A stretch of DNA of 64,000 nt from Hericium rajendrae (taxonomy: Eukaryota > Basidiomycota > Agaricomycetes > Russulales > Hericiaceae). A model generated the notes under the pieces. The model ran no database searches and was not told the origin of the DNA. It saw nothing but the letters and a program-made list of their open reading frames with translations. This document shows, piece by piece, positions 12,946 to 59,596 of this stretch. The stretch's first letter is position 1, and every line of letters starts with the position of its first letter. A program made the position numbers and the translations under genes. The stretch is from NCBI GenBank assembly GCA_033439255.1, contig CM065883.1, positions 1 through 64,000 on the forward strand. The letters are read 5' to 3'.

Positions 12946-13043
12946 GAGTATGAGCAGATATTCTGTGATCTACGGAGTAGGCTTTTTGGTAAGGTTGTCT
13001 AGAAAGGTCGAAATGTCTACGAGTGAGTGATGCAACGCATGTA

Positions 13044-13091
13044 CAGTCATCACCCGGCGAGCGACGCTGCACCTGGCGAGCGACGGACTGC
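13044..13091 (+). repeat. left terminal inverted repeat of the pogo-like element
   Basis: It begins CAGTCATCACCCGGCGAGCG and contains the 11-mer GGCGAGCGACG twice, 22 bp apart. The doubled motif may be a pair of transposase binding sites (inference). 47 of 48 positions match the reverse complement of 15755-15802. Confidence 0.92.
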
Positions 13092-13213
13092 TGTTTTTGG
13101 TAAGGTGCCATCCAAAAGCGGTAGCTCGCTCTCAGATATCTTCGCCGCGACTCGACCTCTGCCTGTCTCGTCGTTACATCGAGTCAGTAAACTACGAGCC
13201 AGTTCTATCTGAT

Positions 13214-15446: not shown

Positions 15447-15754
15447 AATCTCGAGCTGGGTAGAGATTTGCAGTGACGTGGCTAAGCAGCAGGCTCAACC
15501 GACGGCTTGCTCGATCTCGGCTATAATTTAGGTAAATTGACTGGTCCTTCAGACATAATTGCCGAGGGTTGGGAAGGAATAGAAACAACACCATGCATTC
15601 AGAGATGGGAGGGCCCCAGATATGATATGTTGGAACTAGTAAATTCGTACATGAAGGGCATTGAAAGAGAAAGATTGCACAACGCGCAGTAGTTCCGCAA
15701 CTCTCGTAGAGCGTGGGGACCATGTACAAAATTGGAAGGCACCTTCCGGAGTGG

Positions 15755-15802
15755 GCAATCCGTCGCTCGCCAGGTGCAGCGTCGCTCGCCGGGTGATGAC
15801 TG
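15755..15802 (-). repeat. right terminal inverted repeat of the pogo-like element
   Basis: The mirror of 13044-13091 with one mismatch, followed by the TA duplication at 15803-15804. Confidence 0.92.
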
Positions 15803-32100: not shown

Positions 32101-32389
32101 TGAGCTTATTTTTCGCAATCTATTCACAGTCGTAGCACTAGGTCATCGGTTTTTGCCGGAGCATGGTCTTACACATCAGTTTTACATCAAATCAGTGGCT
32201 TAGGTCGTAAGTCCAGCAGCATCACATTGATTAGGTGTCTATCTAGATAGGTGCTTTCACTATTCATGCCATTACTTCATAGCATTTTCTGCATTTGGTT
32301 TCAGCCAGTAGTTCTCAGTTTTTAGTAGCAGGCCTAAGCTTCGCTATGAAGTGGTCTCAGTCCTCTGTTCACAGTTCATGCTCATCGTG

Positions 32390-32540
32390 TGGTTCAGTCA
32401 TGTGCTTTGTGTGGTTTAGCCGAACCCCATGTGGTTCGGTGTGGTTCAGTGTGGTTCGGTGTGCTTCAGTGTGGTTCGGTGTGGTTCGGTGTGGTTCAGT
32501 GTGGTTCAGTGTGGTTTAGTGTGGTTTGATGTGATTCAGT
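32390..32540 (+). repeat. short tandem repeat, GTGTGGTTCGGT type
   Basis: About a dozen 10-bp units reading GTGTGGTTCG, GTGTGGTTCA or GTGTGGTTTA. G and T are almost confined to one strand. It lies between the F-box gene's upstream side and the 3' end of the dioxygenase-like gene. Confidence 0.85.
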
Positions 32541-32884
32541 GTAGTCTGATATAACTTTGTAAAATTCTGGATGATTTGCTAGAAGATTGAGCTAGAGCAG
32601 ACTGGATTCTGCATATTTTACACTACATTTATGTTGATACTGTGCAGTCTGTCTCACATCATTTAGATACAGTGAATTCTTCTCAGATAGCATGATAGTA
32701 GATATAAAAGAGTGAGATTCATTATACAATATTTTTTAAACTTGATCAAGAATGTAAGTAAGAAGCAATTGTCATCTTCTAATGCTGAATTGTCAAGGTT
32801 ATTATATAAATGGCCAGTTACTAGATCTACAGCATAAGCAAGGACTTGAATGCAGATGTAATAGCAGTTTATTACTACAAAACT

Positions 32885-35800
32885 TTAATCACTTCTATCA
32901 CTGCCTGTACTACTAACAGTCTCAACTGTAATTCCTGTCTTAGCTTTATCAAAGGCTGCTTTGATATGCTGTGAGAAGGTGATTGCACAACCTAGGGATG
33001 GACACGAGTCAGAGTCACCTGCGGGTCAATACAGGTATACCTGTGAAATTTACCTGCGGGTTCCTGACCCGCAGATCCGGATCACCCGGTGGCGCAAACC
33101 CGTCCGGGTCCAGGTCAAAGTGTTACTGAAATGCCTTGACCCACGAGTTACCCGCGGGTTACCTGTTGTATTTTAATAATAGTTGTATATTATCACTATG
33201 GTATGTACACTATATACACGAATTTTCTAATTCACAATTCTACGGTGCGAACTGCCTTCTTTGAATTACGGATGTGGCAGAGCAGTGCGCGAGGCGCACA
33301 CAAGGCGTCAAGGGGCAGCAGGTGGCGGAACCATGCGCGAGGTGGCCAACGGCGGCAGATGAGGGGGCGCAGCGCGACAGAGGGCGGGACATGCACGCAA
33401 TGCGTGCAATGGGTGGTGCCGCGCCGTGTGCGCCGTGGATGAGCAAGGCGAAGAGACGCGCGGGGAACATGCGAGGGGCGTGCGCGAGGCCACGAGCCCG
33501 TGCACCATGCGCGCGCACAACGCCGCAGGCCTGCAGGCGAGACGCACGAGGCAAGCGAGGGGCATGCGACGGTCCCTGGGCTCTTGCATGCCCGTGCGGG
33601 AGACGTTCAACTGCCGCGGGCCCATACGCGATGCAGGGTGCGTGCGGGACCGCGGGCGACGGGCACAAACGACGGACGAGCCCCATTGCCATGGCAACGG
33701 GACTCTACCGCGGTCGCCCGCACGTCGTTGACAACGCACAGGCGGCGCGGAACGACGTGGCAAGACGGCCTTGCGTGGCCGTGCGCGCGAAAGGGGAGCA
33801 GGGGGATGTTGTCGTCATGCGTTGGGCATGGATGGGGTGTCGGTGCGGCGCCCGGGCAGCTCGACGCGTTGGCGATGTTGCGCGATGCGAGAGGGGGCGA
33901 TGGGGACAAGGCAAAGGCAGTGACGTTGGACGGGCGATGGTGGGAGGGCGGAGACAAACAAACGAGTGTCGTTCGAAAACGAACGACACTCTGAGTTAGC
34001 ACAAAGAAACACGAAAAAAACTTTTTTTTTTGACTCACCTGATGCCCCTCCAGTTACAATCCTCTATACAACCCGTCTTGACCATCGATAGGCGTCAAAA
34101 ACGAGGCGAGGCGAGAGAGAAGAGATGGAGAGAGTAAAGGAAGGAGTGGGAAGAATAAGCAAGCGCAGTCTCGACGCGCTTCAGCCACCGAACGAGGAAA
34201 GCTACGTTCCTCAAGCTTCAACAAATCAGATAAAGTGGTATAAATTAAGAGAAAAAAGGCATAATAACAGATAGTACTTAAAATTTATTGGTATGAGAAA
34301 CCGACATATTTACTGTACTGTGCATCCCTGAGCAACGACATCACCTTAGTGAAGTCTGCTGCCCAGTCTCTGATGCAGCTCTCGGCAGCTCCCGGCAGCC
34401 GCGATTCTCCTGCAGCGCACTCGTCGTCGCTGGCACTGTTCTACAGCCATTTTCACTGCACCAGCGCATCGAGTTCTGTCGCTGAAGAATAGCAGGATCA
34501 CTACATAACTGACCTGCGGGTGACCCGTGATGTCACGGGTACCTGACCCACGGCTCCGGATCACCCGGTGGCTGAAACCCGCACAGATCCAGGTCGGGCA
34601 TCACGCTATGTTGAATACCCGCGGGTTCGGATCCGGGTCACCCGCGAGTGCACTCGTGTCCATCCCTAGCACAACCCCGTGTTAGCCGTGTACGTGTTTT
34701 TGTTGTACCATGATAATGAGTAGGCTTGAAAGCCATCAAAGTACCTCTGTACTGTGGTACTATAATCTTTAGGTTGAGATCAACATAGTTTCCACCGAAG
34801 CGCTGGGGATGATCCTCTGGTATTACTTGAGGAGATAGAAGAGGAGGAGCAGTGCTACTGCTAGCTTGTGGCTGTGCTTGCTGTCTGCGTGTCTTGTGGA
34901 CACTAACTGCTGCAGGAGGATCTTGAGTAGGAACCTCTTCTTCACCTGTAACTCATGAGTATAATATATTAGCATAGAAGCAATCTCCTCACCTGTAACC
35001 CATGAGTATGCCATATTGGCATAAAAGCCATCAATATGAATGGGGCTATTTGTATAATAAGTTATAGCCTAAAAATAACAGTGGCTCAAAACATACGAAG
35101 AATATCCTTGCACCATATATCCCTCAGGTGGTGCACGTTCTGCTAGAGGAAAACTATAACTTTTTCCATTTACTTGAAACTTATAACCCGGACCTAATGC
35201 AGATATTGTAAATATATATCATAATTTAATTATAGATTTATCACTTACCAGCTGCTATAGTCCGGGTGGCAAGTTTGGGCATTCCAGAGTCATCCATAAT
35301 GCGTTCAGTTTCATCTACCACATCTGTGGGAACATGGGTGCGGACCAATGACCACATGAGTGACATTACTGCCACTACATCCTCATCATGCTTCTTCTGC
35401 ACATCTTGTGACCGTTTCTTGGTATAGCTTACTGCTAAGCCCCAGATACGAACATCACGGGCACCAGCATTCCATCCAAGCTGGATCATCTCTCCCTGAT
35501 GAAGAGGCTTAAACAAATAATATGAGTTTCATATGTATGACTACAGCTAGATAAATTACTCACTCTGACATTACGCCTTTCACTACAGGCTTCTTGCACA
35601 GCATTGTCTACAAAGGTGTAAACTGCCTCACAATCTTCTTCAAACCCTTCTGTTATCCCTACATCACGTATAACAAATGCCTCAACATGAGGTGTTTTGT
35701 CCTTATCTGTAAATATAGTCAGAAATTATTAGATACTAATTTTTAAAATTGAAAATATCATACTATAAGAGATATAAATAGTAATACCATATATAGGTGT

Positions 35801-36535
35801 GATATGAAAACCTTTGTCTGCATTGACAACAAGATAAGGAGAGCCTGTGTATGGTTGATCAGGTTCAAAATCAAATAATAGTGTTTTCTGGTGTGGTTTT
35901 TGAAAAGCCTGCGGTGGGCGTTCAATAACAAGAACATCCTGATCTGCTAGAAGTTCCTCTATAGAACGGCGTTGGCTATCTCCTAAGACTCCAAGATTGC
36001 GCATCTGTACAGATGTCAAGCTATGTATATTTAAAATGCAATATTATTATATATACCAAGGCTCGCTTCGCACTATGAGTTGCTCCATCAGCACTTGCTG
36101 CTTTGAACCACGTCTTGTGAAGATCATATGCCTTCATTGCAGCTCGCAGTTCATCTGAAGGGTTCTTTGCCCGTCCTGCATAGCGACGGAGCTCCTCGCC
36201 CCAATTCTTGCTCTATAAGTAAATTTGAAATTTGATTACAAAAAAAGCTATTATATGGATTACTTACCTGGATTTCAGTAATGCCATGCTCCTTGGCTAG
36301 TGCTAACAGCTCTCCAATTACTATAGGATCTTGTGCCACAAGTTCTTGCTTTGCTAATATCACAGCAGCAGCAACAGTATGGATGAGATGCTGCCCTATT
36401 CACCTTTAGTATCAGAAAAATAGGAAGGATATGTTACATACATCTGCTGTGTAGTCCTACATGTGCTTGCCCTGCCTCATTGACCAGATGGCCACTGTCT
36501 GCTGGGGGGATAGGGCTGGAATTGGAGCTGGTCAT
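32885..36535 (-). pseudogene. 2-oxoglutarate/Fe(II) dioxygenase-like gene (possibly TET/JBP-like), last exon split by hAT copy 2
   Basis: The minus strand from 36535 (MTSSNSSPIPPADSGHLVNE) gives a multi-exon gene of about 600 residues with small AT-rich introns. An N-terminal region of unknown fold includes AGRAKNPSDELRAAMKAYDL and ARDVRIWGLAVSYTKKRS. The C-terminal part shows the dioxygenase pattern: an H-x-D motif in SPIHIDGFYANMAYSW, then GGNYVDLNLKIIV, the distal His in FKPTHYHGTT, and a downstream Arg in TRGCAITFSQ that could contact 2-oxoglutarate. The strand order resembles basidiomycete TET/JBP-like proteins; that placement is tentative. The hAT insertion at 32993-34668 falls inside the last exon, between the distal His and the conserved Arg region. 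The gene is therefore probably inactive at this copy. Base composition is AT-richer than the host genes, as in the DDE/HECT block. Confidence 0.6.
32993..34668 (-). mobile_element. non-autonomous hAT element, copy 2 (inverted relative to copy 1)
   Basis: 1,676 bp with an 8-bp duplication GCACAACC at 32985-32992 and 34669-34676 and the same 17-bp end repeats as copy 1. By eye it differs from copy 1 by very few positions, mainly in the A/T homopolymer beside the hairpin and one C/T change near 34454. Both copies therefore moved recently. It has no transposase gene. It interrupts the dioxygenase-like gene. Confidence 0.92.
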
Positions 36536-37399: not shown

Positions 37400-38720
37400 A
37401 ATGTGATTTCTGAATGGCTCGTAAGTACTTTCAAGCCGCACCATTTTCGCAGTGAACGACTCACTAAACGATTTTTCACAGCTCGTGAATCGCGTCGCCG
37501 ACAACGCCTGCGCCGGGCTACGTCCGGCTCCGGCGGAGGGAGCACCAGCATGCACTCCGTCGATTTGCCCTAGTGACGCGGTTGCCGCTCGCCGCGGGGC
37601 TGTGAGCCTCGGAATTTTGGTGACAAAAACGAGCTTCTGAAAGCCTGGTGAGTGTTCATTCACCTCGGCTAATTTCACTGCGAAAAGCTCACCAAACGGC
37701 ATCTCACAGCTCGTGGAACAGGCCACAGACGATGCCTACGCCGGGCTGCACCCGGGTCCGGCGCAGGTGGCGCCAGCGTGCTGTGGATGCGACCTCCGTA
37801 GATCTGCCCTAGTTACGCGGTCGCCGCTCGCCGCGGGGCTTTGAACTTCGGAAAATCAGCGACGGAAATGAGTCATCTGCAGATTTGGTGAGTCTCTGCT
37901 TCAGAAAGCTATGCTAGCAGTGAAAAGCTCACCAAATGACTCTCCACAGCGCGAGAAACAAGTCATCGGCGAGCCCTGCGCCGGGCTTCGCCCAGCTCCG
38001 GCGCGCGCAATGTCAGTGTCGAGAAGACACTGGCATTGCAGCCTTAATTTAGCGACACGCTCGCCGCTCGTCGCGGGGCTTTCGAACTCGGAAAATTAGC
38101 GACGAAAATGAGTTTTCTAGAGGCTTGGTGAGTCTCTGTCTCACAAGGCTATGCTCGCAGTGAAAAGCTCACCAAACGACTCCCTACAGTGCGAGAAACG
38201 AAGTCGTGGACGAAGCCTGCGCCGGGCTTCGCCCGGCTCCGGCCACGCACTGTCAGTGTCGAGAAGACACTGATATCGCAAGCTTAATCTAGCGACACGC
38301 TCGCCGCTCGCCGCGGGGCTATGGACCTTGGAAAATAAGCGACGAAAATGAGCTTTCTAGAGGCTTGGTGAGTCCCTGTCTAGCAAGGCCATTCTCGCAG
38401 TGAAAAGCTCACCGAAATACTCCCCACAGCGCATGAAACAGATCATCGACGAAGCCTGCGCCGGGCTTCGCCCGGCTCCGGCGCGTGCGACGTCAGTGTC
38501 AAGAAGAGACTGACTTCGTAGACTTGGCACAGTGACACCGCCGCCGCTCGCCGCGGGGCTCTAAACCTCAGAAAATTGGCGGCGAGAATCGGCTTCTCTG
38601 AAGGCCTGGTGAATATCCATTTGTCTCAGCTGTTTTCAGTGCGAAAAGCTCACCGGCGGTTGCAGAACACGGCAGGAATGCTGCCCATAGTGTGTGTGAT
38701 GAAGCCTGCGGCCGAACCAC
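37400..38720 (+). repeat. tandem array with ~240-bp unit, about 5.5 units
   Basis: The landmark CGCTCGCCGCGGGGCT recurs near 37595, 37835, 38070, 38310 and 38550, about every 235-240 bp. Each unit also holds an inverted pair, TTGGTGAG and CTCACC(A/G)AA, about 45-60 bp apart, and a GC palindrome GCGCCGGGCTTCGCCCGGCT. The units are diverged (roughly three quarters alike by eye), so the array is old. Intron-like GGTGAGT and CACAG strings recur in each unit, but I find no open coding path. Confidence 0.85.
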
Positions 38721-41125: not shown

Positions 41126-41889
41126 CTCGTCGCCATCCCTGCGCCGCCATCCGCCCGCCAGCTTGGACGCACCGCTGTCGCTACACAGCGATGCCGTACG
41201 CCCCACGTGCCGCCATCCCTGCGCCGCCGCCCGCCCACATGGCGAAACTGTATGCACACCTCACGCGCCGTCGTTCCTGCGCTGCTGTCTGCCCGCCAGC
41301 TTGGACGTGCTGCCATCGCCACATGGCGACATCGAAGCTATCGACACCACGATGGTCTCTGCCGACATGTATATGATGGGTGCTGAAGTCGGGTCAAGCT
41401 CCCTGCCATCTGTGCATAGGTTCTGGAGGCTGTGCGATGTCTTCGGTGAGTGTTACTGTGTGCAAATAGCTGAGTCCAGCTGCCACTCATCTAGCCCTCC
41501 AGAATGCTGTGTTTTCGTGCTGATTTCTCGGGATTCACAGCCCTGGTCATGTGGCGAGCAGCGAGTGGATCCCTCCTGTCGATTGCCTGCAGCTGGTGTC
41601 GCTAGATCTCTGTCGATACCGACATTGTGAGTGCAGAAGCCCAGCGATGTCCCTGCTATACCGACCCTGTTAGAACTGTGCAGTGCATTCTGGTGAGCTC
41701 GTCTCATCGCAGCTAGCCGAGTATGATGACGGCTCCCCATGCCTTCTGGAGGCCTATTTCTCGCTGCTGTTTCGCAGGATCTCAGTGCCCCATAGCGAGC
41801 AGCGAGTGTGCCTGCAGGTGAATTCTTTGAAGCCCACCTCATCGGTGGGTCCCCTCGAGTCTCGTACTGCTGCTGCACTGTGGTCTGGT

Positions 41890-42000
41890 TCTCGCTAGGT
41901 TCGCTGTCTCGCTGGATTTGCTGTCTCGCTGGGTTCGCTGTCTCGCTGGGTTCGCTGTCTCGCTGGGTTCGCTGTCTCGCTGGGCCTACTCTTGAATCTC
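41890..42000 (+). repeat. 17-bp tandem repeat
   Basis: Six near-perfect units of TTCGCTGTCTCGCTGGG. A looser GGGTTC-containing repeat continues to about 42080. Confidence 0.9.
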
Positions 42001-42629
42001 ACCGGGCATAGGCACCTGGCACTTTCATCGGGTTCGGGGGTTTCACTGGGTTCATGGGGGTTCATCGGGTTCAGGGGGTTATCGGCTGTATGCTGTTCTA
42101 TGCTGAAACTCGGCGGGATGCCGGTCAGGTCCCTGTACTGTGCTTTTAACGTGCACCACCCTGGTCGGTGGATCAAAGAAGTGAAGGCACATATAGGATG
42201 GTGTGCATGCATGCTGCCTGTATGGCATGGGTTCTGGGGGTTTTTATTGGGTGCAGGGCATATCAATTAGGCCTGCTATGATTCAGTGGGCCTGGCATAC
42301 TGCTGATCTTCTGTGGGCATGCCCACTATGACATGCATTTTACCTCTCTCTATGCTCTGGGAAATCTGCTGCTGCTACATCTATAATTTCTGGGATATTG
42401 ATGCTCATATTCAAGAAACAATGATGCTTATGATTAAAAATGCATCTGTAGCTGTTATAAGGCTATAAATCCTGGTTATCTGCATCTATGAATTCTGCAG
42501 TCCTAATGCTGTGATAAAAATGATGCATCTGAAATTTTGACATATTGTATAGTCTCCTGGCACTCTAACATGTGATGATAGCCTGGACATCTCAATTCTA
42601 TACTATATAAATCTGAAAAGTGGTAACAT
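42001..42629. other. transition from GC-rich repeats to AT-richer accessory DNA
   Basis: Base composition drops sharply over this stretch. It is a likely place for the left end of the DDE/HECT element, but I found no inverted repeat or target duplication. No gene seen. Confidence 0.4.
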
Positions 42630-44100
42630 TTATGCTAAGAAGCTGTCTAGCTGACTACATAGAGGACTAAACAGTGATGTCTGGCGTAATTCTGCAGCTG
42701 CCTTCTCCTCTAAATTTTGTGATAACTTCAGAGGCTGCTTATTTTGAGCCAGTGCACCATCAGCTCTAAACATAAAGGATATGCCAGTCCAGGCCTGGTA
42801 GTGCTTCCAGTCTGCTGATGTGGGATCTATATAAATACTAGTTGAGAATGAATTACAAAGTGTAAAGATAATTCTTACCTGGAATACTCTGTGCCCATCT
42901 CTTCCCCTGGGCCACACTTACTGCCCATCCATAGCCCTGTGCTTTTTTCCTATAAGACGTAGGAGCCCACTTAAAATACTCCAGGATATTCTGAGATGTC
43001 ACAGTAAACCCCCCTTCATAAGACATAATACCCTGTGCCCGTAGGTCACTGGTATAAGATGGAAGTCCTAGAGCCTCCATAATATATGCTAGTGCAAAGA
43101 AGTTCCTGGCCATATTGAAGAGCAGCCCCCTATTACCATCAACATGGTAGTATGCTGAATCCTCTATATGAGAGGGAATTATGGTCCTGAGAACAGCTTT
43201 TAAATCTGCTGTGGAGCTGAGTGATGCACCATATTCAGCTGAGACTGAAACCATAGCAGGCATTCCAGGGAGACTGCAGAATATTATCAATGTAGGTCAA
43301 TGTGTTATAATTTGAGCTGACTTACCCAGTAGGAAAAGGAGAATTCTGCATAGAACTGGCTATAGATAATGTGGAAGGAGCAGTGGATGGAGAGCGTGAT
43401 GAAGCTGGAAGCAGAGATGTGGTAGAGTTGCCTGCCGAATATGCAGGAGCTGGTGACAGAGATATAGTAGAGTGACCCTCCACATGTGTAGGAGCTGGTA
43501 AGAATATGACGATGAAATGGAAGTTGAAGTCCATCTGACGTGGCTGCTGTACTTGTATAAAGGCAGTCATCACAGGATCCTGGCTTTCCACATTAACTGC
43601 CAGAACCTCCTGCTTATCGCTGAAATATGGAAGGTGATGGGTGCTACCATGCCGTAGTAAACTGAGAGGACCTAGATGCTGGTACCCAGTGGTAGGAAGC
43701 TGCATGGCTGGCCCAAAGTCAGGAACCCGGGTTGTCGCAAGTGCAGTCAGGTGCTGGGTATTCTCGGCAAGAGTGTGCACCAGCCACAATGGTGCCGATG
43801 GAACAGACCCCATAATATCAGGGCTGCATGACAGTGCATTGAGTAGAGTGCCGATCATGATGGACCATGTTCCACTGCGTTCGACAAGATAATGTCGGCC
43901 GATAGGAAGATTTCGGATGAGATGGGTCTGCAGCATGCCACCCTCGGTCGAAGGCATAGACACAGTCATACATGACACGATCTGGACTGTGTCTGTAGTT
44001 CATCACAGTCGAAGCAGGACAATGATCAGTCTCAGAAGCCACAAGGAAGCACAGCAGCCTCGGATTGATATGGAAGCTCACCAAAATCTGTCTCGTCCAT
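42630..44100 (-). CDS. unrecognised protein beside the DDE transposase
   Basis: No family recognised. The minus strand from 44100 starts MDETDF in a 19-bp exon. It then joins in frame to VQIVSCMTVSMPSTEGG and an exon running to about 43327 (LIRNLPIGRHYLVERSGTW near its start; a Ser/Pro/Thr-rich linker near its end). A third exon (about 43275-42880) encodes LKAVLRTIIPSHIEDSAYYH and LPSYTSDLRAQGIMSYEGGF. The last exon ends at 42630. Total is about 430 residues. It is divergent from the DDE gene across 270 bp and shares its AT-rich composition, so it is probably an accessory gene of the same element (inference). Confidence 0.6.
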
Positions 44101-44370
44101 CTTCGCCGAAGAACCAGTTTCTGATGACTGCACAGCCTGTAGACGATGCGAGCACCATATTGTGAGATACACTGTAAGATGAGCATCGACAGGATTCAGA
44201 GATGCTTACAGGAGCTACTCGGTATTAGATGCAGCCGAGTGGATGTTTAGTGATGAGAGTTGTCGTGAATCGTCGCAGGCTGCATTTAGCTCGGAATTAG
44301 CCGAAGTGCATTTTTCTGGCTCTCATCGTACTCGTAGCAAGGTCCAGAGCTCCTACCTCTACGAGTCGCA
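44101..44370. promoter_or_regulatory. divergent promoter region between the unknown gene and the DDE gene
   Basis: 270 bp between divergent start codons. No binding motif was recognised. Confidence 0.4.
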
Positions 44371-46344
44371 ATGGATAACAGCCCCAATTCATTACCTCTC
44401 GATGATGATGTTCTTCCTGCCGACCTTCTTTCTGCCTTTCGATTACATTACCATCGCTTCGCGAACACAGTTGCACAGCTCGAAACGAGAGCCACCGACT
44501 CAACAGTCATTGCCAGACTCGGCGATGATATTGATGAGTATCTTGCACTCGTCAATGAGGTATTCAACAATTTTGTATCATAGCTATCTCTGATGCTAAG
44601 TCTCCTATACAGTATGGCAACATATTCCCCCATGACGAGCTCCAGATGATACAGATCAATATCAGTGTCATGCAGGGTGACATTCGTCTATATTATCAAG
44701 ATGCACTGGATGGGTCTCACTATGGACATCCTTCGCTCGTCGAGACTGTGTATTCTGGTGACCGAGGACGTCCCCAGCTTGTTATCGATGCCGACTTTCT
44801 ACGCTGGGCATATACACTGCGCTCCACATCCAGCATTGCCCGGTTCCTTCATGTTAGCCGTGCAACTGTACGGAATTCCCTGCTACGTTATGGGATTGCC
44901 CAGCCTCAGCCAGATCCTTTTATCCCACATCCTCCTCCCTCAGCTAGCCCCACCATAGCAGTAGACAATCCTTCAGATGAACATGATGCTCTTTTAGATC
45001 CTGTTCCAAATCAGGAGGACACCAATCTAGATTCAGTACAGTCTTCCTCTCAAGAAACTCACAATCATCTCCCAGGATCTATTGTCTCATTTACTGGTCC
45101 TCTTTCTACTATGGATGATGCAGAGCTAGATGCATTGATCATCTCACTTCGGACACATTATCGCCGTGCAGGTATTACAATGCTTCATGGAATGCTGCGT
45201 TCTCTTGGCCATCATGTTCCACGTGAACGCATCCGTCAGGCCTTGATACGGATTGATCCTGTGCAACGTGTCTTTCAGAGGATTCGCATCCGTCGCAGGG
45301 TCTATTCAGTTCCTGGACCTAATGCTCTATGGCATCATGATGGACAGCATGGTAAGTGCATAATCTGCCTTCAAATAGATGCTCTGTAACTCTAAAACAT
45401 GATTTTTGACCCATAATCACAGGTCTTATACGCTGGGGCATTGTTATTCATGGTTTTATTGATGGTTATTCACGTTTGATCACTGGCCTACATGCCAGCA
45501 ACAACAATCGTGCCCATACAGTCCTTGAGGTCTTTCTTGGTGCTGTGAGAACATATGGTGTTCCATCACGCATGCGTGGTGATCATGGTGTAGAAAACTT
45601 GCAGGTGGCTGCCTGGATGGAAGCGGTTGTAGGTGAACGGAGAGGATCATATATCTGGGGCCGGTAAGTTAGTGATTCCTCTATATGATCTGATTATTTA
45701 TAGGGGGTTTTTTTTTCTCTAGAAGTGTACATAATGTCCGTATAGAGCGGCTGTGGGTGGATGTCACTGCTCAAGTTGGTGCTACCTGGGCAGATTTTTT
45801 CACCAATCTGGAGCTGCGTCATGGCCTCAATATCAACAGTGAACATCATATCTGGCTACTACATCATCTATTTCTGCATACTCTCAACATGCAGCTCACA
45901 TTCTTTGCAGAATCATGGAACCAGCATCGTATGCAAATTCGAGATGGGCCTAATCGCTCACCAGCAGACATGTTTGGCTTTGACATGTTTGTACATGGAA
46001 TCCGTGGAATTCAGCTTCCACTCATTGATGTGATGCCTGATGAAGAATTGGAAGTGTTTGGTGTGGATTGGGAAGGGCTGGCAGATGACAATGTCTTACA
46101 GTCACGAACAGGAAATAATTCTCAAAATGAAGGTGCTTCTTCCTGGATAGGTCAGCATGGTCCACCACAGCATCTCAATGAGGTATTATTGGAGCCACCT
46201 GCAGGTTCACTAACAGGAGAGGAGCAGGATTGGCTGAGTCATTCCTTAGATCAGTGGATGGGAAGTGGAAACAGTGATAGTAACACATATCTATGGATAC
46301 AAGGGTTAGGAATGGTGCGGACCATGTATCCTGATCTCTTTTAG
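44371..46344 (+). CDS. DDE integrase-core transposase
   Basis: A predicted DNA transposase with a retroviral-integrase-type (rve) catalytic core. Exons 44371-44559, 44613-45351, 45423-45663 and 45723-46344 join in frame to 596 residues with no break. Around residue 120 there is a helix-turn-helix (ARFLHVSRATVRNSLLRYGI). After an acidic linker comes HYRRAGITMLHGMLRS, a second winged-helix-like region. The core shows the first Asp in LWHHDGQHG, the second in RMRGDHGVEN and Glu in VHNVRIERLW, with 34 residues between the last two. The flanking strings HGFIDGYSRL and SWNQHRMQ match the integrase-core proteins that are multicopy in fish and cnidarian genomes. It has no chromodomain, reverse transcriptase, protease or capsid partner, which argues against a retroelement or Polinton origin. 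It is convergent with the HECT-like gene. Confidence 0.88.
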
Positions 46345-47802
46345 TCAGAATATGAGCTTCATAAAATGTAATCCTCTGATTCTTATCTTTAGATTAATAG
46401 GAGCTCAGATTTCAGTCAATTTACATGAAAGCAATATATTCCAGATGAAAGCAGTAAGTATAGTCAAGTTACTAACAAAGTAGTAGTAAAAAAATTATAA
46501 AGCAAATATGAGTGAGAGATAGCAGGATAGATTTTTGTGAGGGGGATACTAGAGAAAATATGATGAATATTAGAGAAACATCAGAAGTTATGCACAGTAG
46601 TCAAACATTTAGGCAATGGTGTGATGACCAATACCACGAAGAATGACACATAGGAACCAATGGTCAATTGCCTGGCGATAAGATGTCAGTGTAGTCTCAC
46701 GATCAGGATATTCCTTCTGTGCAAGCCTGACTGCATGAGCTGCAGGTATGCGAACCGACCGAAAACATGTCTGAAATGCAAAGATACCATTGGCAAGCAT
46801 CATATCAGAGTGACGATGAAGCCTTCGATACAAAACATCATCGTCACCAACGAATGTTGCCTATGAAAGATATTAGTAGGATGATGTTGTGATACATATG
46901 GGTATGACTGACTGTGATCGAATTCTGCCCAGCTGGGTCCAGAAATGGTGAACCAGTGGTCGCCCACACAAAAGCACGAACTCGGAACCCAGGGGTATCA
47001 ACCTGGGTAAGGTCAACGACAGAAGGAAATGACCCTCGGGCAGCATTGAATAATGCAATGCAAGGAATCCCTGAGCCACGCAAGAAGTCAGCAAGAAGTG
47101 TCGGAAAGGTGATGTCGGCATCTTGAGTCGCTTCACGAAGCTGTGCAGTCAATGCTGGGTTCAAAGGCCTTGCGACAGTAAGATATGGCTCCAGAGATGC
47201 AAAACCCGATGATAGCGATGATGTCCAGATCACGCTGAAGAATGCCTCGGGTCCACCTGCAAAGCGCCGTATGATCTATGCACCGAAGGCATGTCAGGTC
47301 ATGATCACACCAGAACATCCATAAGAAAATCTCACTTGAGTAAAATCGAAGCCATTACGACATTGTAGCCTGAAGCCTTCGACAAAGCTGGCCCATTCAG
47401 GATGAGAGAGTCGCTGTGGACCCATGATCGTCTTAAACAACAATTCGGCTGCAAGAGCCATGTGCGACTCTGATGTTCTTTCACCGAGTGAAGCAGTCTG
47501 AATTGAAGAAGTAAGCATATGCTGCATCATTCACAGTCAGAGGGAAAAACATACTGTCATGTCGAGATACGAAACGAACCACCTCTCAAAGCGAGCAGGA
47601 CTCCCTTCTGGGCCCATATCAATCCAATCCCGAACAGCATCGCAAATTTCAGGATGCCATTCGCTTACGAATGCAGGATGAAGAGAATTGATATCAGCAT
47701 CGTAAACGATATACTGAAAGAGGCATGGATCGTAGGGTTCGATGTTGTTTCCCATGATCAACATGAGTGCACAGATTGCACCAAGCTTCTTCAGAGCTAG
47801 TG

Positions 47803-48183
47803 TGTCATGAATCGCCCATTGGTCTTCTTCATTCCCTTTGTTCCCTATATGGACACTCCCTTGTTATGTCCCCTTGTTCCCTGTTAGGATATCCCTTGTT
47901 CCCCTTTAGGATATCCCTTGTTCCCCTTTGGGACATCCCTTGTTCCCCTTCCCCTTGTTCCCCTTTCAGGATATCCCTTGTTCCCCTTTGGGCTATCCTT
48001 CCAGTATATATAGGGCTACCTTTCTGACTGGCTTCCTCAGTTTGTCCACTTGACTCTCCAGTCCCTTGTACCCTAGACATTCTCAGCCTGTCTCTACTCT
48101 CTATGACATCCTCTGCTCTTTGATCCTTGATCCCTTGGGGTGACTTGGATGGCTTCACTGTTCCCCTGAACCCAGTCTTGACA
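47803..48183. repeat. left LTR
   Basis: 381 bp, built largely of a CCCTTGTTCCCCTTT-type short repeat and a TATATATAGGG stretch that could be its TATA box. It matches 48466-48846 throughout by eye. Confidence 0.93.
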
Positions 48184-48465
48184 TTTGGACAAACTCTCAT
48201 ACATCCACCTCACCCACCCCTGTCCATTGGATTCTTACCCTCCCACCTAGTCCTTGAACCCACTGCCCACTGCCCAGCTATGACCCCATGATCACCAGAT
48301 GAGTTGACACCATTGCTTGCAAAAACCCACAGAACCACAGACCACAGAACACAGAACACAGACCCACTTGCAAGGTGGTTGTCAGTCTCAGACTCAAGAT
48401 TCCATGTAGATGTTGGATAGGTGTTGGTGTGCTCCAGGTGCAAGCACACCTTAAAGAGGGGGTAA

Positions 48466-48846
48466 TGTCATGAATCGCCCATTGGTCTTCTTCATTCCCT
48501 TTGTTCCCTATATGGACACTCCCTTGTTATGTCCCCTTGTTCCCTGTTAGGATATCCCTTGTTCCCCTTTAGGATATCCCTTGTTCCCCTTTGGGACATC
48601 CCTTGTTCCCCTTCCCCTTGTTCCCCTTTCAGGATATCCCTTGTTCCCCTTTGGGCTATCCTTCCAGTATATATAGGGCTACCTTTCTGACTGGCTTCCT
48701 CAGTTTGTCCACTTGACTCTCCAGTCCCTTGTACCCTAGACATTCTCAGCCTGTCTCTACTCTCTATGACATCCTCTGCTCTTTGATCCTTGATCCCTTG
48801 GGGTGACTTGGATGGCTTCACTGTTCCCCTGAACCCAGTCTTGACA
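48466..48846. repeat. right LTR
   Basis: 381 bp, same sequence as the left LTR, followed by the TAGTG duplication. Confidence 0.93.
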
Positions 48847-51334
48847 TAGTGTGCGAGAGCTTGGTACAACCTCAGCAGAAAATCCAGTATGATTGACCTG
48901 TAGAGTCGCCCGACCATCGAGCCGATCCAAGAAATACACAGCCCTCTGGTCTTGATAGTGCTTAAAGGCGATAAAGAGCGCTTCACGAGCAATACCATCG
49001 CCGAACGACTCAGGATGACCATCCTCGTCAAGCCTATAATATATAGTAGTCATTAGTACAGCTTCACATCTAATCAAAATATAAGCGACTCACGTAGTAA
49101 ACGAACGACTAGAGGCAAGAACTTTGGTGAAGTCACCAGTCTCAATCGCTGTGCCAATCTCAGCCATAAGCAGGTCTGCAAGATGAGCAGTACTGGCTGC
49201 CTGCAGGTGCATCTGAGCATCGGGTGCACCTTCGCATGCTGCATTGAAGACATCGTCAGAGAATGTGGTGATGCTATAGATTGGGAGGCCAGGCTGGTCG
49301 GCAGAAGATGGTGGAGGAACCCATGGAGAAGTCCAGAGCCCAGTCTGGCTAGACCAGGCAGGTGAAGCAGATGCTGCCGATGAAGTTTCGAGCATGACAT
49401 CATGAGCTGCCAAGTCAGACGATATGGCTTCTGCTGTCGTCTCAGCTGTTGTCACCGAGGCAGATGCTATTGAGACTGTCGCTACTGTCGCTGAGCGAAT
49501 TGGAGAGGGCGAAATTGCCAGCAAAGCAGAAGGAGTAGAAGGACAAAGAGCTGCTGGTGCTTCTAACCGAGGCTGAGATGCTGGCAGTGGAGCGATAGAG
49601 ACATGGCGACGAGGAGCCTGTACATCTGACGAGGTCTGTGCAGAGCTGTGATCTTCGGCCACAGGATTCCAGGGATTATGGGGAGTTGCTGTAGACGACA
49701 GGAGATGACTAGGCTGTGAAAGGCCTTGAGATGGCCTAGGGGCAGACAGACGAGAATGGTGCTGCTGCTGAGGTATCTAGTAAAAACTGCGATGAGAAAT
49801 GCAACAGCCTGTATAATTAGCAAGCATACCTCGCTCTCACGATTGACGACCATACGATCGACTTCGCCTTCAGACGACGATGCTGAAATCTCCTGCATGG
49901 CCATCGCATCCATGTCCTCTTCGCCACCAGATGTTTCATCATCGGAAGTATATGGATTTGCATCAGCATCGCTGGCATACATACAATCATAGGGAAACTG
50001 TCCCCAGATTCTGAGAGAAAGGCAGTTGCGATGCCGACGACCATCCAGCAGGAAGCTGACCTGCCTTGGGAGCACTGCGAAAAAATTAACGACAAGACAT
50101 CAGCATCGCGAACAAACACACAGCAATGAGTAAGATGCAGAAGGGCTTACAAAAATGGATGATGAAGTGATCTTCTTCAACACAATGCCGTTTACATGCG
50201 AACAGGTTCTGGCTGTCCAGAAGTACCTGCACAGTCATCCGTGGATAGACTACTTCAGGCAATAGACGAATCTGTCCATCACGTGGCCGAGCTTGGCCCC
50301 GAGCAACGTATCGCATGATATGCATGGGCGAGTCAGGAGCAGCATAAAAGTCCGGCGCAAAGGTGTATGCCAGAGGAGACTGCACCATCTGAGCCATGAC
50401 GTGGTGAGCAATAGACGAGACTTCTGTTGTACGTGAGACGACCATCCGATGGCTGAGATTGAACAATTCAAGAGTGGCATTGAGATGCCTTCGCATGAAT
50501 GAGAAGTAGTAATAGTCTCTGCGACGAAGTTCTGGGCGCTGTGCAAACATGATCAGCTTCGAACAGTATATGGATAAAATTAGAAAAGCATACATGGGAT
50601 GGATAGACCTTCACATGGATGCGCAGGCCTGTATCTGGACCAGCACCAGCCTGAAAGCATGCATCAATAGTACCTGATCGTGGTAGGTCTGGGGGCTGTG
50701 TCGCAGCACGACGTGGGGCCCGTCGGGTTAATGCTGGTGCACGGGGAAGAGTTGCAGCTGCAGAGGCAGTACGTCCCTGGTTCGCATGGCGGGTATTAAG
50801 TGGCACAGCAAGGTTATGCATGCCAGAAAATACTGGCTGATGAGTCGCTGGAAGGGAAAAAGCTGCACTGTTTGAAGACGATGGCTGACCAAGTCCCTGC
50901 AAATGCCGAGAACTATGGTATGGTTCAGAGATGGGGGTGATCGCTGCAGGTAATACCCGTGGCTGAGAGCTCGGTGGTATAGATGCCTGTGACCCAGCGA
51001 AGTTGTGATATGCTGTAGGTGCACGATCTATGTGTGGAGCTGGAAATGATGGGACTGCTGGCTGGATTGTACGAGCAGCTGCTGAAAGCGAAGACATAGG
51101 TGCTGGCGACGGAGCAGAGACACCAAGCTGTGCAAGCCGTGTGAAGGGATTCGGAGGTGGGAGGGCTGGAGAAGAGTTTGCAGGTCCAGACGACAGGATA
51201 CCAAGCTGAGACAGAAGATCCATCGCAGGCTGGGAGCCTGCCGACCTAGCTGCCAGTAACTGCCGAAAGAGCTGGAGAGCCTCGGCATCCAAATCCGAAT
51301 CATTTCGAGCCTGCTGGGTATGGGTGTGATTCAT

Positions 51335-51910
51335 GGTGATCTAGACGAGAAGAAAGTCAGTACAATGTCATTGCCGAATGAACACAGCTTATACAGACTT
51401 TACTGATAATAAAGACCGAGACGACGAGATAAATGGAACGATTAATGGATAGGAAAGATAGGAGAAAGGATCGAAGAAGCGAGTGATTGAACGAATGTGC
51501 GAAGATTTGGTGCTATATAAGAAGTCAATGAATGACGAAGATCAGTACTGCAGGCAGCATAATACTGAGAAACGAATTTACTTTAGATGATGATTGGGAT
51601 ATAATGCGAGGATTAGTGTTAAGCTATGACCATGAAAATATGCCACGAGACTGTCAGTTTGCTGCTCGCAAGAGGATGAATTGGATGGAAAGCTTACTGA
51701 GCGAAACAAATGTTCTGCAATGGGGATGACGAACAGGGTATGAACGAGCGAGACGAAGATGCTGATCTACAGACAACAAGTGCGACAGATCGTAGGTCAT
51801 TAATCTGATGTTGATAGTAACAAAAAGAAAAGGAACATACCTATGAAAAAGTGATCCCTTCGAAGGATGACCCTTGATAGCAGTGCGAGCGATGAAGCTA
51901 ATGTAACACA
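51335..51910. other. upstream region of the HECT-like gene
   Basis: Purine-rich on the plus strand (GAAAGATAGGAGAAAGG-like). No gene seen. It probably includes the promoter of the HECT-like gene, and the element's right end may lie here or further right. Confidence 0.35.
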
Positions 51911-52228
51911 AAAAGCGACAAAGTAAGTGACTGGAAAGAAATTGTGAGAATATATTACTTACCTAGAAAGAGCAATCGTCTATGACGATGACAGCAGAGC
52001 GAGCGAACCTCAACGAGGTCAGTATCTAGAGAAATTAGGCAAACTGGACGAGTGCAGGTATAGAAAAGCGACAAAGTAAGTGACTGAGAAGAAATTGTGA
52101 GAATATATCACTTACCTAGAAAGAGCAATCGTCTATGATGACGACAGCAGAGCGAACGAGCGAGCGAGCGAGCGAACCTCAACGAGGTCGGTATCTAGAG
52201 AAATTAGGCAGACTGGACGAGTGCAAGT
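51911..52228 (+). repeat. two-copy tandem duplication, ~153-bp unit
   Basis: AAAAGCGACAAAGTAAGTGA begins both units (51911 and 52064) and CTGGACGAGTGCA(G/A)GTA ends both. The second copy has gained GAGC repeats (GAACGAGCGAGCGAGCGAGC). It is about 95% alike by eye otherwise. Confidence 0.85.
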
Positions 52229-53207
52229 ATACATGTCAGCTCGACACACACAGAAATAACAATAAAAGGACTCAACTATCGAAGATATGGTCCTCTGCGG
52301 GTATCAGGAGCGAGAGGCTGAAGGAGCGACAGAATGAGGCGAGAAGAAAAGGACAGGCAGCTGGCTTGACGAATTGCCTCCCTCCTGCACCAAGCAGTGT
52401 GGTTAGAGCATAGCCGATGTGGTTCTCGCTAAGTTACCCGAACCACAGAAACCATACAAGCCAGCCTCTGAACCACACAAAGACTATGAACCTATGAAGA
52501 GGACCAGCGAAGTCACAATGAATAAACATAGATATTATTGAGATACAAACAGATTGTTAGGACGAGGGATTCGAAACCAGTGAGAACTGCCATCAGACAG
52601 TACAGTAGGACTGGTCACTGCTGGACTGTGGCCTAGATCTATGCATGCCAGTATCGCAGGCATGCAGCATGAAGCCGATGACCGAAAACTGATCTTGGCG
52701 CCAAAACCATGACCGAAAACCGGTCTCGGCACCAAAACCATGACCGAAAACCGGGTGCAGCACCAAAAACCATGACCGGCGACTTGTGAATATTTAGCGA
52801 TAAATAATGTCATAACATTGGTCGCTGAATCGACAGACGGAATTAGTTGGGATTGGTTTTCCATCGGCGGCAGGTCAGGAATGCAATAACAAGCAAGGAC
52901 GCCAAATTCTGATGGATGCGTGGCTTGACTTTCGTGTCGCTAGAGAAACCAGAGGAGGTCCACGACAAGAGCTGATCGTTATGGGCGCTCGGCGATGCCC
53001 ATGTTTCTGCTGTAACTACCTTACCCAAAAGATGCATATTGTCAAAACTCCAGCACTCACTGCTCGCCGACAACACAGTCCGATTGCCAGATATTTCAAT
53101 AGCTTCAATAACCAAACGTGCATGTAATGCCTCATTACAATGCGTGCACACGACCTCAGCAGAGCCTGGTTACGGAGAGTTATAGTTATAGCAAGAGGCA
53201 AGAAAGA
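52229..53207. other. intergenic, composition returns to GC-rich
   Basis: No supportable gene. It contains a 31-bp tandem repeat at 52678-52780. A minus-strand open frame at about 52843-53151 (CTHCNEALHARLVIEAIEIS) matches no family I know and has no clear start or splice context. Confidence 0.35.
52678..52780 (+). repeat. 31-bp tandem repeat
   Basis: About three units of CATGACCGAAAACCGGTCTC followed by GGCACCAAAAC. The last unit is partial. Confidence 0.88.
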
Positions 53208-54065
53208 ACAATCAACTTCCTGACGGAGCGCGAGGCCGGCGGAATCAAGCGACAGACGATCCTGAGGTACGAAGTGTTGAGTCCTGTCTGCTCTGCCTCT
53301 GGGAGACTCAATCAAGCGTCAGACGAAAATTAACGATCCTGAGCAAATTCTGATCGAGGCTCGATCGGTGAGTACTGCTCAAGTATTCATCTAGATCAAG
53401 TCCGTCTACGGCCTCACCGCGTGCGTCCCTCCCCTTCCCCTCCCCTTTCCTTCGCTTTTCGGAAAAACAAAGGACAGGGGAGCGCAATGGGAGGGACGCA
53501 CGTGGTGACTCTTCCTGTGATAGAGACTAGCGCAGCGCACAGCACGGTCCTGCTTCGCACTGCAACGCTCGACTACCGTGGCGCGCCCCCTCAGATGAAA
53601 CGATCCTGAGGCACGATGGTTGAGTATTCGTCTACTCTGCCTTAGGGAGACTACCTTCGGCGGACCTGCGCGCGCAGCGCATCGCCTTCGTGCCGTCAGA
53701 TCTCACATGAGCAGTATGCAACTAGTCACGCCGAGATGTCGGCCCATTCCTCCTGCAGTATCTAGATTAGATCGTGAATGTTAGCAAGTGGCGACTCGCG
53801 AAAGAGGCTGAATGCGTGCGCGCGGCGCGCGACTGGGAGCGGGTTTCGGAGGGCTGGGGGCGCGAGCGCGGGCGCAGGGGCCGCCGGGCGAAGTTGTCAA
53901 TGGGCCCAAGTGCAATTTACTGCTCGCTGTCTGGCTTTCGGTGCTATGCCCCCTTGTCTTAATTATGGTGAATGAATTGATTTACAAACAATCGAAGCAA
54001 AGTACAGCGAAAGCATGGTACGGTGACAAGACACGAGCAGGAAGATACGAAGGGGACAATGCTAA
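53208..54065 (+). pseudogene. partial duplicate of the 3' part of the Nudix gene
   Basis: This copies the last two exons and about 160 bp of 3' flank of the Nudix gene at 28486-29907. Recognisable pieces, in the parent's order, are FLTEREAGGIK (53218), VYGLTA with the following donor (53408), TVLLRTATLDYRGAPP (53546) and RAARDWERVSEGWGRERGRR (53821), then the parent's 3' flank (GAATTG(A/T)(A/T)TTACAAACAATC) at about 53972. Unrelated DNA of 100-200 bp separates the first pieces. The parent's stop codon is gone, because one base is added after the Ala-Lys-Leu that corresponds to the parent's Ala-Arg-Leu end. The 5' two thirds, including the Nudix box, are absent, so it cannot make an enzyme. 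Confidence 0.85.
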
Positions 54066-56079: not shown

Positions 56080-59000
56080 TCACACCCCCGGCAGCCGTTC
56101 CGCGCTCTCCGCCGCGAGCCGCGCAATATCCGCGTCCCCGCGCGGATCGTAATGCCTGTATGGCGACCCCGGGCGCCCCGGCGGCAATGCAGCCTCCTCG
56201 CCCGACTCGCCGCGGTAGTGATGATGGTGCGGCAGGCGCGAATTGCGCGAGCCGGGCGTCATGAGCGGCGCGGGCGACGAGGCGCGCGGCACGGGGACGG
56301 GCAGCGGGGCACCGTTGGCGCGGGGCGAGTTGGGGTAAGAAGATCCTGACCCCGAGCGCTGTGGGTGATGCAGCGCTCCTGGCGCGGGCGCGGGGACCTG
56401 CAGTACGGGCGTCGCCGCGCGCGGTGAGCCCGGACCAGGCGCGTATACCATCGGCGGCGGTGCCCGGTCTTTCTGTGTTCGTCGTGAGCGCTGCAGATTC
56501 GCACCCTGCCCCTGTCCCTGCGCGGGTGCCGTCAGCGGCGCCATGCCGAAGCCCATGAGCATGCGCTCAGTCGAGCCGGGCTCGCGTCGGACCGCGTTCG
56601 GGTCGGGCCCCGTCTGCACCCTCGTCGTCTTACTCGAAAAATAGCCCGTGGGCGAGGACGACGAGGACACGGTGGATGGTGGGCGGTTGCGGTTGACCGG
56701 ATTGGGCCATGCGCCGTCGGACGGGGCGGGGACGTTGGAGTATATCGACGGTGGGGGCTGCTGCTGCTGTTGCTGCTGGGACTGAGGTCGCGACGGGGGC
56801 TGGGTGCGCTGTTGACTTTGGGAAGGCGGGCGCGACGGGGCCTGAGCGCGCTGTTGGCTTTGAGAAGACGGTCGCGACGGGGGCTGGCTGCGCTGTGGCT
56901 GCGGCAGCGGCACCACCGGCTGATTCGGGCTCAAGAACCGATTGGCGTCCTGCATCTGCGCTTGGAAATGTGCCGAGTCGTCCGTCGTGCGCGGCGTCCG
57001 TTCCAGCGTCGAGTGCAAGCTCTGTCAATCAACACACTGCCATAAGCACCTGCGGTGGGAGTGCGAATGGAGAGAGAAAAGCAGCGCACCGGCGACTCGA
57101 GGAAGATATTCGGCTCGTCCACGCCGCCCTCCGACACGAGCACCCGCGCGCCATCGCGCCGCCCGGGACTCGCAGCCGGGGTGAGCGGCCGTGCGTACCC
57201 GTCGGCGCGCGGCGGGGCATAGAACGAGTTCGTCGAGGCCGATGCTGCGCGGCGGGGAGCGTAGATATTGCGCGGCGACGAGGGGGCCCGCATCGGCGGC
57301 TGCGTCGGCGTCTGTGGCGCGAGCGGTGCAGGCGTTGTCGGGTTCGTTGGCACCCATGTACGCGGTAGGCCGTCATTGCGGGGGCGGTGGTTAGGGCTTT
57401 CGCGCACGGAGGCAGAGGCGGCCTATCATAGAAGCATCAGCTGGATCCTGTGCATGAGGGTAATAAGGCGCAAACGTACCCTCGGGGCGCCAGGACCAGG
57501 TGGACCATCTCGTAGCCAATTAAACGACGGGGCGTCGTACCTACCCGGGACTCTCTCCGACTGGGACCGCCGATGCCCATCGCGCCCCACTGAAGGCGAG
57601 GGCGACTGCGGCGGCGGAGGTGTCGGCGCCATGACATACGAGAACTCGCCAGGCGGAGGCGTCACCGGCACAGGCGGGACATACACCGGCGTGCGCGGCG
57701 GGGCGGGATACTGGAGGACCGGGGGCGGTGGCGACGGCGACGGCGAGCGAGAGTATATGGAAGGCGGCCGCTGACTCTGTCGCCGCGAGCTTTGTCGGCT
57801 TTGTCGGCGAGAGGAGCTGCGACGCGAAGAGCTCGGCTCGGTGTTGACGACCTCGGGGATCGTCGGCGGGACATTTGGCTCGGGCAGGCGGGGCGCGCGG
57901 TTGTACAGTTCGCTGCCATTGGGCTGTTGCGGCGCGACGGGGAGTGTGGTCGTCGAAGTGAGGGAGGGCGATCCGTTCCGCGGGACCTGCATCGGTAGCG
58001 GCGCAGGGCTCGGCGTGGCCATACGCCGCTCGCTCACGTAGCCTGGGGGCGGCGCGATGAATGTATAATCGGACATCATGCTCGGCGAGGGCGGCGGGCG
58101 CTCAAGGTTGTGCAGGTTGACCCCGATCCCATCGAGGCCGAGCGCGGGACGGGGCTCGGAGGCTCGTCCCTCAGAGGCTCGTCCCGCGACGGACGCAGCG
58201 GCGGATGGGAGGCGCGGCTGGCCGGGGACAGGCGTACTGCGCACGGCGGCACGAGGATCTGCGTCGATGTCGTCATCGAAGTCAACGTCGCCGTCGTCGT
58301 CATCGTCTGCGGACCGCCGCTCGTCATCGTACAGAGACTCCCCTGCGTCGACATCGGGTTGCCTGCGATCGTCCATCCGTCCGTCCCAGAATCCCTTGCG
58401 CTGCCCGGCGCGGACGCCCTCCTGGTAGCCGAGCCGCCTGCCCTCCTGCATCGCCCGCTCGACAAGATGCGCCTGCTTCAATGCCCGTGCAGTATCCCTC
58501 GCGCGCGCGGCAGACGCCTCCGCCTCGCGTCGCAGCACGTCCTGGTCGCCCAGGAGGTCCTGCGCGCGGCGTATCTCGGCCTGCGCGGTCTGGAACTGGA
58601 CCTTGTACATGCCGAGCTCCTCGCGGGCGGCCGAGCCGGCGCGCAGCGCGGCGAGGCGCTCCTCGTTCGCCTCGCGGAGGCGCGCGGCCATCTCGAGCGC
58701 GATGCGCTCCGCGTGCTCGGCGCGGCCGCGCGACTGCTCGACGCGCTCGAGCGCGGTGCGCAGGCTGCGGCGCATGTCCTTCGCGTCGCGCTCGGCGAGC
58801 GTCATGAGGCGCTTGAAGTCGTCGTAGGTGTGGCGGCGTTCGTGCTGCTGCGTGTGCCGACGGCGGCGGGGCTCGAGGGAGATGGTGGAGAGGGAGACGC
58901 GCCGGTCGTAGCGCCCATCGCGGCGTGGCGGGGACCCAGTGTCGGGCGAGCGCGTGGGGTCGGCGTTGAGACGTTCGGCGCTGTCGGGGTCGGGTTCGGG

Positions 59001-59185
59001 GTAGGAGAGGATAGTGGCCGCTGGGGGAGGGGGAAGGGGTGGGAGAGGGGCCTCGTCGCTGTGTGGCTCGTATGTTTCCTGGGTGTATCTGGGGATCGTC
59101 AGTATTGGTCGCGCGTGTGGCGCGAGTGCACGTACGGAGGGCCGGCGTAGAGCTCGGAACTGCTTCCACTGCTGCTCCTTTCCAT
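56080..59185 (-). CDS. coiled-coil protein with Pro/Ser/Gln-rich tail (paralogue of the gene at 10319-12945)
   Basis: No named family. It starts MERSSSGSSSELYAGPP at 59185. A 50-60 bp intron near 59.11 kb leads into a Pro/Asp-rich stretch and then a long Ala/Arg/Glu-rich coiled coil (LMTLAERDAKDMRRSLRTAL onward). The coiled coil ends in EASAARARDTARALKQAHLV and GRRLGYQEGVRAGQRKGF, the same block as in the 10-13 kb paralogue (EASAARARSTARKIKEARLI). The remaining 600 residues are low complexity, with poly-Gln/Pro runs and the repeated unit RPPSQSQQRTQ/RPSSQSQQRAQ. Introns lie near 57.45 and 57.05 kb. The stop is at 56080. It is divergent from ARB1 across 411 bp. This paralogue has a longer N-terminus and higher GC than its partner. 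Confidence 0.78.
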
Positions 59186-59596
59186 GATAGAGCGTAGTGG
59201 GGTATCAAGTAGCCTCCCTAAGCCGCCGAAGGAAGATGATAGTCGACCTTCCGGTTGAAGCTAGTGCGGGGGGAGTGTGGGTATTGCTAGCACTACAGAC
59301 GCGTCAGCAGCACGCTTGCTGCAGTCAGATCTACAAATCAGCTACACGGGTATAGAAACGGGCTACGGAAGCAGCAGGGTATACACGGCGCGGTTATTAG
59401 GAGAACATCGCGGGCAGCTTCAAAGTCAACGAAAGCAGAACAAGGAGCGCACAAGCCAGCACTGCCCAATGAGGCAAGACCCCAACCCGGGGTTAGGGTC
59501 AAGGTCAGCCACCCGATTGAAACTCCGCCGAAAATGCAGACTTACCTTAGGATCGATGGTCAGCCACCGACTCTACTAACCTTCCTCACTACCACC
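59186..59596. promoter_or_regulatory. bidirectional promoter region, coiled-coil gene / ARB1
   Basis: 411 bp between divergent starts. A GGGGTTAGGGTC string at about 59489-59500 resembles a telomere-type box of the kind seen before many translation genes. A TGCCCAAT string precedes it at 59463. Functional use is inference. Confidence 0.4.

Follow-up and report, generated by a model that had tools for sequence, protein, structure and literature searches.

An IS3EU/GingerRoot-like transposase locus with two candidate passenger genes in the fungus Hericium rajendrae

Do three closely packed genes of the agaricomycete Hericium rajendrae form a single DNA transposon, and does one of them encode a ubiquitin ligase? 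The question is raised by positions 42630-51334 of contig CM065883.1 (GenBank assembly GCA_033439255.1), which we analyzed within the stretch of 64,000 nucleotides that begins at position 1 of the forward strand (hereafter the window). A first-pass annotation had described here an intact DDE-type transposase gene lying between an unrecognised divergent gene (the left gene) and a convergent gene with HECT-like motifs (the right gene), and had proposed that the three constitute one large transposon that carries its own ligase. We lean slightly towards reading the locus as a fungal IS3EU/GingerRoot-type DNA transposon with two minus-strand passenger genes, preserved either as a copy or as a remnant with decayed ends; the joint mobility of the genes, the passenger status of the neighbours, the ligase activity and the target of the ligase are points that we infer.

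An integrase-like transposase and its two neighbours

The gene arrangement stood up to closer analysis, as all three models in the region have open spliced frames, with the left gene divergent from the transposase gene and the right gene convergent with it (Table 1). These models are predicted from sequence, their introns having been positioned by hand to hold the frames open, and every intron is of the GT...AG type. Also confirmed was the 596-residue DDE protein with a complete catalytic triad: a Pfam search matched residues 293-476 to the integrase core rva_4 (PF24764) with E=5.6e-66, and the triad is formed by D306, D363 and E398 (spacing D-57-D-35-E), the first aspartate being preceded by a long region. 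The helix-turn-helix assigned to the same protein is weaker, as helix-turn-helix families matched it only at E=0.14-0.16, under the Pfam cut-offs. The predicted identity of the protein as an integrase-like DDE enzyme is well supported, and, as expected of this superfamily, it very probably catalyses cut-and-paste movement. We regard it as a putative member of the IS3EU/GingerRoot group, a placement that draws on its DD35E spacing, its integrase-type core and what is known of the group.

A pattern scan of GTDB contigs gave a single match, a sponge-associated contig (LWTN01000139.1, 1-4212) that encodes a relative of the transposase (E=1e-47), the two being 42% identical across 221 residues. It is catalogued with a sponge-dwelling Cycloclasticus symbiont, and a reading of its translation places a reverse transcriptase-like frame beside the transposase relative; the contig looks like sponge DNA that was placed in the symbiont's bin. 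In IMG/VR, the transposase and the downstream piece of the right gene, used as queries, each returned four pattern matches, none of them a relative, and two degenerate patterns likewise found no relatives in that database. A plasmid collection yielded one weak match to the transposase, from Gordonia, which covers 24% of the query at 29.1% (E=3e-4).

The three genes resemble one another in composition. The GC content at third codon positions (GC3) is 0.380 in the transposase gene, 0.432 in the left gene, and 0.430 and 0.416 in the two halves of the right gene, as compared to 0.511-0.894 in 12 comparison open reading frames (ORFs) from the window, which were hand-picked among its long frames, so that these values and the codon distances are descriptive and carry no significance test. 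Six of the comparison ORFs have Pfam support, two of which represent a Tc5/pogo-type transposase; three more returned no Pfam match over the cut-off (11605-12969, 57429-59204 and 30630-32012), and the remaining three are 60086-60775, 6467-7366 and 4916-5734. Codon-usage distances are 0.26-0.34 among the four coding pieces of the locus, 0.46-0.56 between these pieces and five pooled host-like ORFs, and 0.35-0.42 between them and the Tc5/pogo-type transposase of the window. GC content ranges from 0.416 to 0.513 in 1-kb intervals across 42001-53000, and further AT-rich stretches occur in the window (e.g. 32001-33000, 35001-36000 and 62001-63000), so composition alone is modest evidence; the AT-richness claimed for the three genes holds with respect to the GC3 of the comparison ORFs. 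The layout is compact: the divergent starts lie 270 bp apart and the convergent stops 264 bp apart, and apart from one insertion the frames are open in all three models. A common origin of the genes fits their low GC3 and close packing and is plausible, though these features are no proof of it. The left gene had no match in a Pfam search at E<=1.

Table 1. Predicted genes and other features of the locus, in coordinates of the window
Feature	Coordinates	Strand	Basis or remark
IS3EU/GingerRoot-like DDE transposase (putative), 596 aa	44371..46344	+	Open spliced frame, PF24764 match, D306-D363-E398
Transposase exons	44371-44559, 44613-45351, 45423-45663, 45723-46344	+	Four exons
HECT-like candidate gene (right gene), split by insertion	46609..51334	-	Open spliced frames on both sides; motif signature; without profile support
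Right gene, upstream exons, 748 aa	51334-50594, 50538-50151, 50074-49830, 49776-49094, 49033-48847	-	GT...AG introns
Right gene, downstream exons, 340 aa	47802-47555, 47497-47336, 47275-46913, 46860-46609	-	GT...AG introns
LTR-type insertion, 1,044 bp	47803..48846	+	LTRs (long terminal repeats) 47803-48183 and 48466-48846
Gene without Pfam match (left gene), 425 aa	42630..44100	-	Open spliced frame, GT...AG introns
Left gene exons	44100-44082, 43992-43326, 43273-42879, 42826-42630	-	425 codons
Upstream region common to left gene and transposase gene, 270 bp	44101..44370	.	Gene starts

The right gene as a HECT-like candidate

The right gene is not intact: an insertion that the first-pass annotation did not record splits it (47803-48846), and within this insertion its frame reaches a stop. 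This insertion is bounded by two long terminal repeats (LTRs) that are identical 381-bp direct repeats (TGTCA...TGACA), the second of which is directly preceded by a purine-rich tract (AAAGAGGGGGTAA), and the target duplication TAGTG is present on both sides (47798-47802 and 48847-48851). The paired LTRs with TG...CA ends and the short target duplication are those of an LTR retroelement, and the identical LTRs, the TG...CA ends, the purine-rich tract, the 5-bp duplication and the short internal part are all shared with small LTR retroelements that lack genes; by its anatomy, the insertion is a small LTR-type retroelement. It presumably resembles the TRIM type. Because its LTRs are identical, the insertion into the right gene is probably recent, and because the gene is split, a full-length protein from this copy is unlikely, so that in this copy the gene is probably non-functional. 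Directly upstream of the right gene lies a tandem duplication of ~160 bp (51911-52231; two copies, 94-95% alike).

By eye, HECT-like motifs follow one another as expected in the downstream piece of the right gene and close with ATTGSPFLD...FAFQTCFRSVRIP; the cysteine of its TCF motif lies 52 residues before the C-terminus. We expressed the C-lobe part as the pattern TG[ST]-x(15-55)-TC[FIVTS]-x(4)-[LIV][PY], chosen post hoc with the sequence already seen, so that the counts obtained with it overstate the support for a HECT domain. It occurred in 7/200,000 shuffles of the downstream piece, and in none of 200,000 when F-x-x-G-F was required ahead of it; it was present in 7/9 HECT C-lobes and both of two full HECT domains, and in none of the 957 ORFs of the window. 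A third and longest pattern (0/200,000 shuffles) was discarded, as by-eye judgement found it too strict for real HECTs.

Profile methods returned no support for this assignment. The first-pass annotation had called for profile searches of both the DDE core and the HECT-like gene; the former succeeded with Pfam, whereas those of the latter with Pfam, the PDB and our own HECT profiles did not. The two halves of the right gene were searched separately, which weakens every profile test described here. Pfam gave no HECT match to either piece at E<=1 and nothing for sub-pieces at E<=10, and phmmer found nothing in the PDB at E<=10. A profile built from nine HECT C-lobes, which as a control found 77 PDB sequences at E<=0.001, ranked the downstream piece 64th of 3,958, a score that was equalled or exceeded by 37/3,000 shuffles and 29/957 ORFs of the window. 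With a full-length HECT profile made from two sequences, the score of the downstream piece was reached by 32/2,000 shuffles and that of the upstream piece by 89/2,000 (746 and 1,224 shuffles, respectively, being reported at all). AlphaFold models of two single exons, computed without an alignment, had predicted local distance difference test (pLDDT) values of 61.0 (all helix) and 43.6, too poor to be used for judging a bilobal HECT fold. As compared to HECT-type E3 ligases (PF00632), the right gene shares a loose motif order and the TCF cysteine, both picked out post hoc, but differs in that none of the profile searches matched it with statistical support; what the ordered signature leaves is a motif-level lead, a HECT-like candidate and no more.

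Ends, known elements and competing explanations

Several results count against a transposon with two passengers and a ligase: besides the hand-picked composition sample and the profile searches described above, they are the outcomes of the searches for element ends and for further copies. A search for TA...TA pairs that combine inverted termini of 20 bp (at least 11/20) with an exact 6-bp duplication found none; it was run without a shuffle control and also listed other duplication lengths. Examination of TAYGG/CCRTA positions and 24-bp inverted pairs gave 57 pairs (again without control), none of them supported. Allowing TA or TG termini and one mismatch in the duplication produced three candidates, all TG, as compared to 2-7 in ten shuffles. 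The best inverted local alignment was matched by 3, 1, 12 and 3 of 60 shuffles for four choices of region, and the window yielded no second copy of the three genes (nothing else matched at E<0.5). The best inverted local match itself (41925-41956 / 52151-52186) was discounted as a pair of element ends, as it joins two simple repeats. The ends may be degraded in this single copy or may lie beyond the stretches searched. A 16-nt direct repeat (94%) flanks the three genes at 41886-41901 and 52420-52435, 10,534 bp apart, and may be due to chance, since similar short two-copy families occur in the same stretch.

Published accounts place these observations among known systems. IS3EU and GingerRoot are described as a single lineage of integrase-like DNA transposons, whose ends are TA...TA (in GingerRoot occasionally TG...CA) and whose duplications usually measure 6 bp (PMC10045372). 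In the TET+ IS3EU elements of rusts and one truffle, a TET/JBP gene has the transposase on one side and, on the other, an alpha-kinase gene of opposite orientation, and the terminal inverted repeats (TIRs) of those in rusts end TAYGG..CCRTA (PMC12730594). Styx of Zymoseptoria, thought to be derived from IS3EU, combines an integrase-type transposase with three further ORFs (GATA, CCHC and DUF3577 domains) in a consensus of 7,927 bp with 36-bp TIRs and 6-bp duplications (PMC10853768), and IS3EU has been reported from Ganoderma leucocontextum (PMC8955403). Passengers in IS3EU-type elements are therefore already known. Our locus resembles the IS3EU/GingerRoot lineage in its integrase-like DDE transposase (DD35E here) with a long region before the first aspartate, and published fungal members also have passengers; it differs in that such termini and a 6-bp duplication were not found. 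As judged by Pfam, both of its neighbouring genes differ from the TET/JBP and alpha-kinase passengers described in these sources. With Styx it shares an IS3EU-related integrase-type transposase accompanied by further ORFs, whereas the domains, TIRs and duplications reported for Styx were not seen here. RAG1, a Transib-derived gene mentioned in a screen of fungal host-transposon fusions (PMC10799480), has a RING ubiquitin ligase at its N-terminus that is fused with the Transib-type transposase, so a ligase joined to a transposase is not new in itself; the likeness lies in the pairing of a ubiquitin-ligase domain with a transposase, and the difference in that RAG1 has a RING rather than a HECT domain and is a fused host gene, whereas a passenger would be a gene of its own. 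The words 'hect' and 'ubiquitin' are absent from the main text of each of PMC12730594, PMC10045372 and PMC10853768, as is 'hect' from the fusion screen (PMC10799480), and among the literature matches listed we recognised no HECT-bearing transposon by title and the start of the abstract.

How the right gene is to be read governs how much of the original proposal survives. There is an even chance, in our estimate, that it encodes no ubiquitin ligase and that its TCF signature arose by chance in an unrelated protein: the Pfam, PDB, C-lobe and full-length profile searches give no support to a HECT domain and the single-exon models are poor, whereas the ordered signature was rare among shuffles (overstated, the pattern being post hoc) and was absent from the ORFs of the window while present in most true HECT C-lobes. 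A different possibility concerns its membership of the element. The transposon might comprise only the transposase, or the transposase and the left gene, with the right gene being a fungal gene unrelated to it, either fast-evolving or lineage-specific, whose convergent position is due to chance. We think this rather unlikely, but it agrees with the failure to find ends enclosing all three genes, with the published variation of IS3EU-type passengers between lineages, and with the sponge-associated contig, which matches neither neighbour below E=0.4 and is filed in a 2.3-Mb genome with no PF00632 match at E<=1. That contig is only 4,212 bp long, however, and holds a retroelement-like frame beside its transposase, so the missing partner says little; moreover, the right gene has the same low GC3 as the transposase gene.

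It is improbable that the three genes make up a transposon-derived cluster, domesticated or maintained by the host, rather than a mobile unit. The open transposase and left gene and the lack of visible element ends would suit such a cluster, but its base composition is unlike that of the comparison ORFs, and the break in the right gene, caused by an insertion whose repeats are identical, gives no hint that this copy is under strong selection. Of the single transposon proposed in the first-pass annotation, what stands as plausible is the association of the genes, given their shared low GC3, compact layout and the published passengers; its ends were not found, and of its ligase the motif signature remains without the profile match.

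On the reading that we favour, the DD35E transposase would excise the element and reinsert it, and the two minus-strand neighbours most likely ride as passengers of the same element, as passengers are known from IS3EU-type elements described in other fungi. The right-hand one is perhaps a divergent HECT-type ubiquitin ligase, which might then ubiquitinate host silencing or repair factors that restrain the element. The small LTR-type retroelement would have split the right gene later, probably recently, leaving a copy that is probably defective for that gene. Taken in full, as an IS3EU-like fungal transposon with its own divergent HECT-type ligase and a second passenger protein, the ligase tagging host silencing or repair factors, the proposal is tentative, and we regard it as rather less probable than not.

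Further repeats in the window and wider meaning

The window contains several other mobile elements and repeats. Two copies of a ~1.67-kb element (17854-19527 and 32993-34668) lie in opposite orientation and are 99-100% alike, with ends TAGGGATGGACACGAGT...CCATCCCTA and perfect flanking 8-bp duplications (ATGAGTAT; GCACAACC); judged by these ends, the pair is putatively hAT-like. A Tc5/pogo-type transposon at 13044-15802 has inverted ends of ~50 bp and a TA duplication, and its HTH_Tnp_Tc5 and DDE_1 matches fall on two neighbouring frames, which may be separated by a short intron or a frameshift. At 52678-52778, a 31-bp unit (ATGACCGAAAACC...) is present in three tandem copies, the middle one of which, used as a pattern with <=3 mismatches, matched only itself within the window. 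Also present are an inverted repeat at 53414-53508 (47-nt arms, 85% complementary, 1 nt apart), a tandem array of ~240-bp units at 37428-38592, and a dense 23/31-bp repeat array at 62959-64000 (TGCAGTCCTGCACT...) that adjoins a very AT-rich stretch (GC 0.252, 62001-63000). Rfam and tRNA scans of the window found nothing.

Even without a ligase, the locus presents an IS3EU-like transposase with two candidate passengers that Pfam does not recognise. If it were real, a transposon-borne HECT ligase would parallel, at the protein level, the TET/JBP demethylase-type genes of fungal IS3EU elements. The existence of transposons with TET/JBP or kinase passengers suggests that means to counter host control can travel with mobile DNA, and a HECT ligase would add protein tagging to these, together with a testable handle on the host factors that restrain fungal elements.

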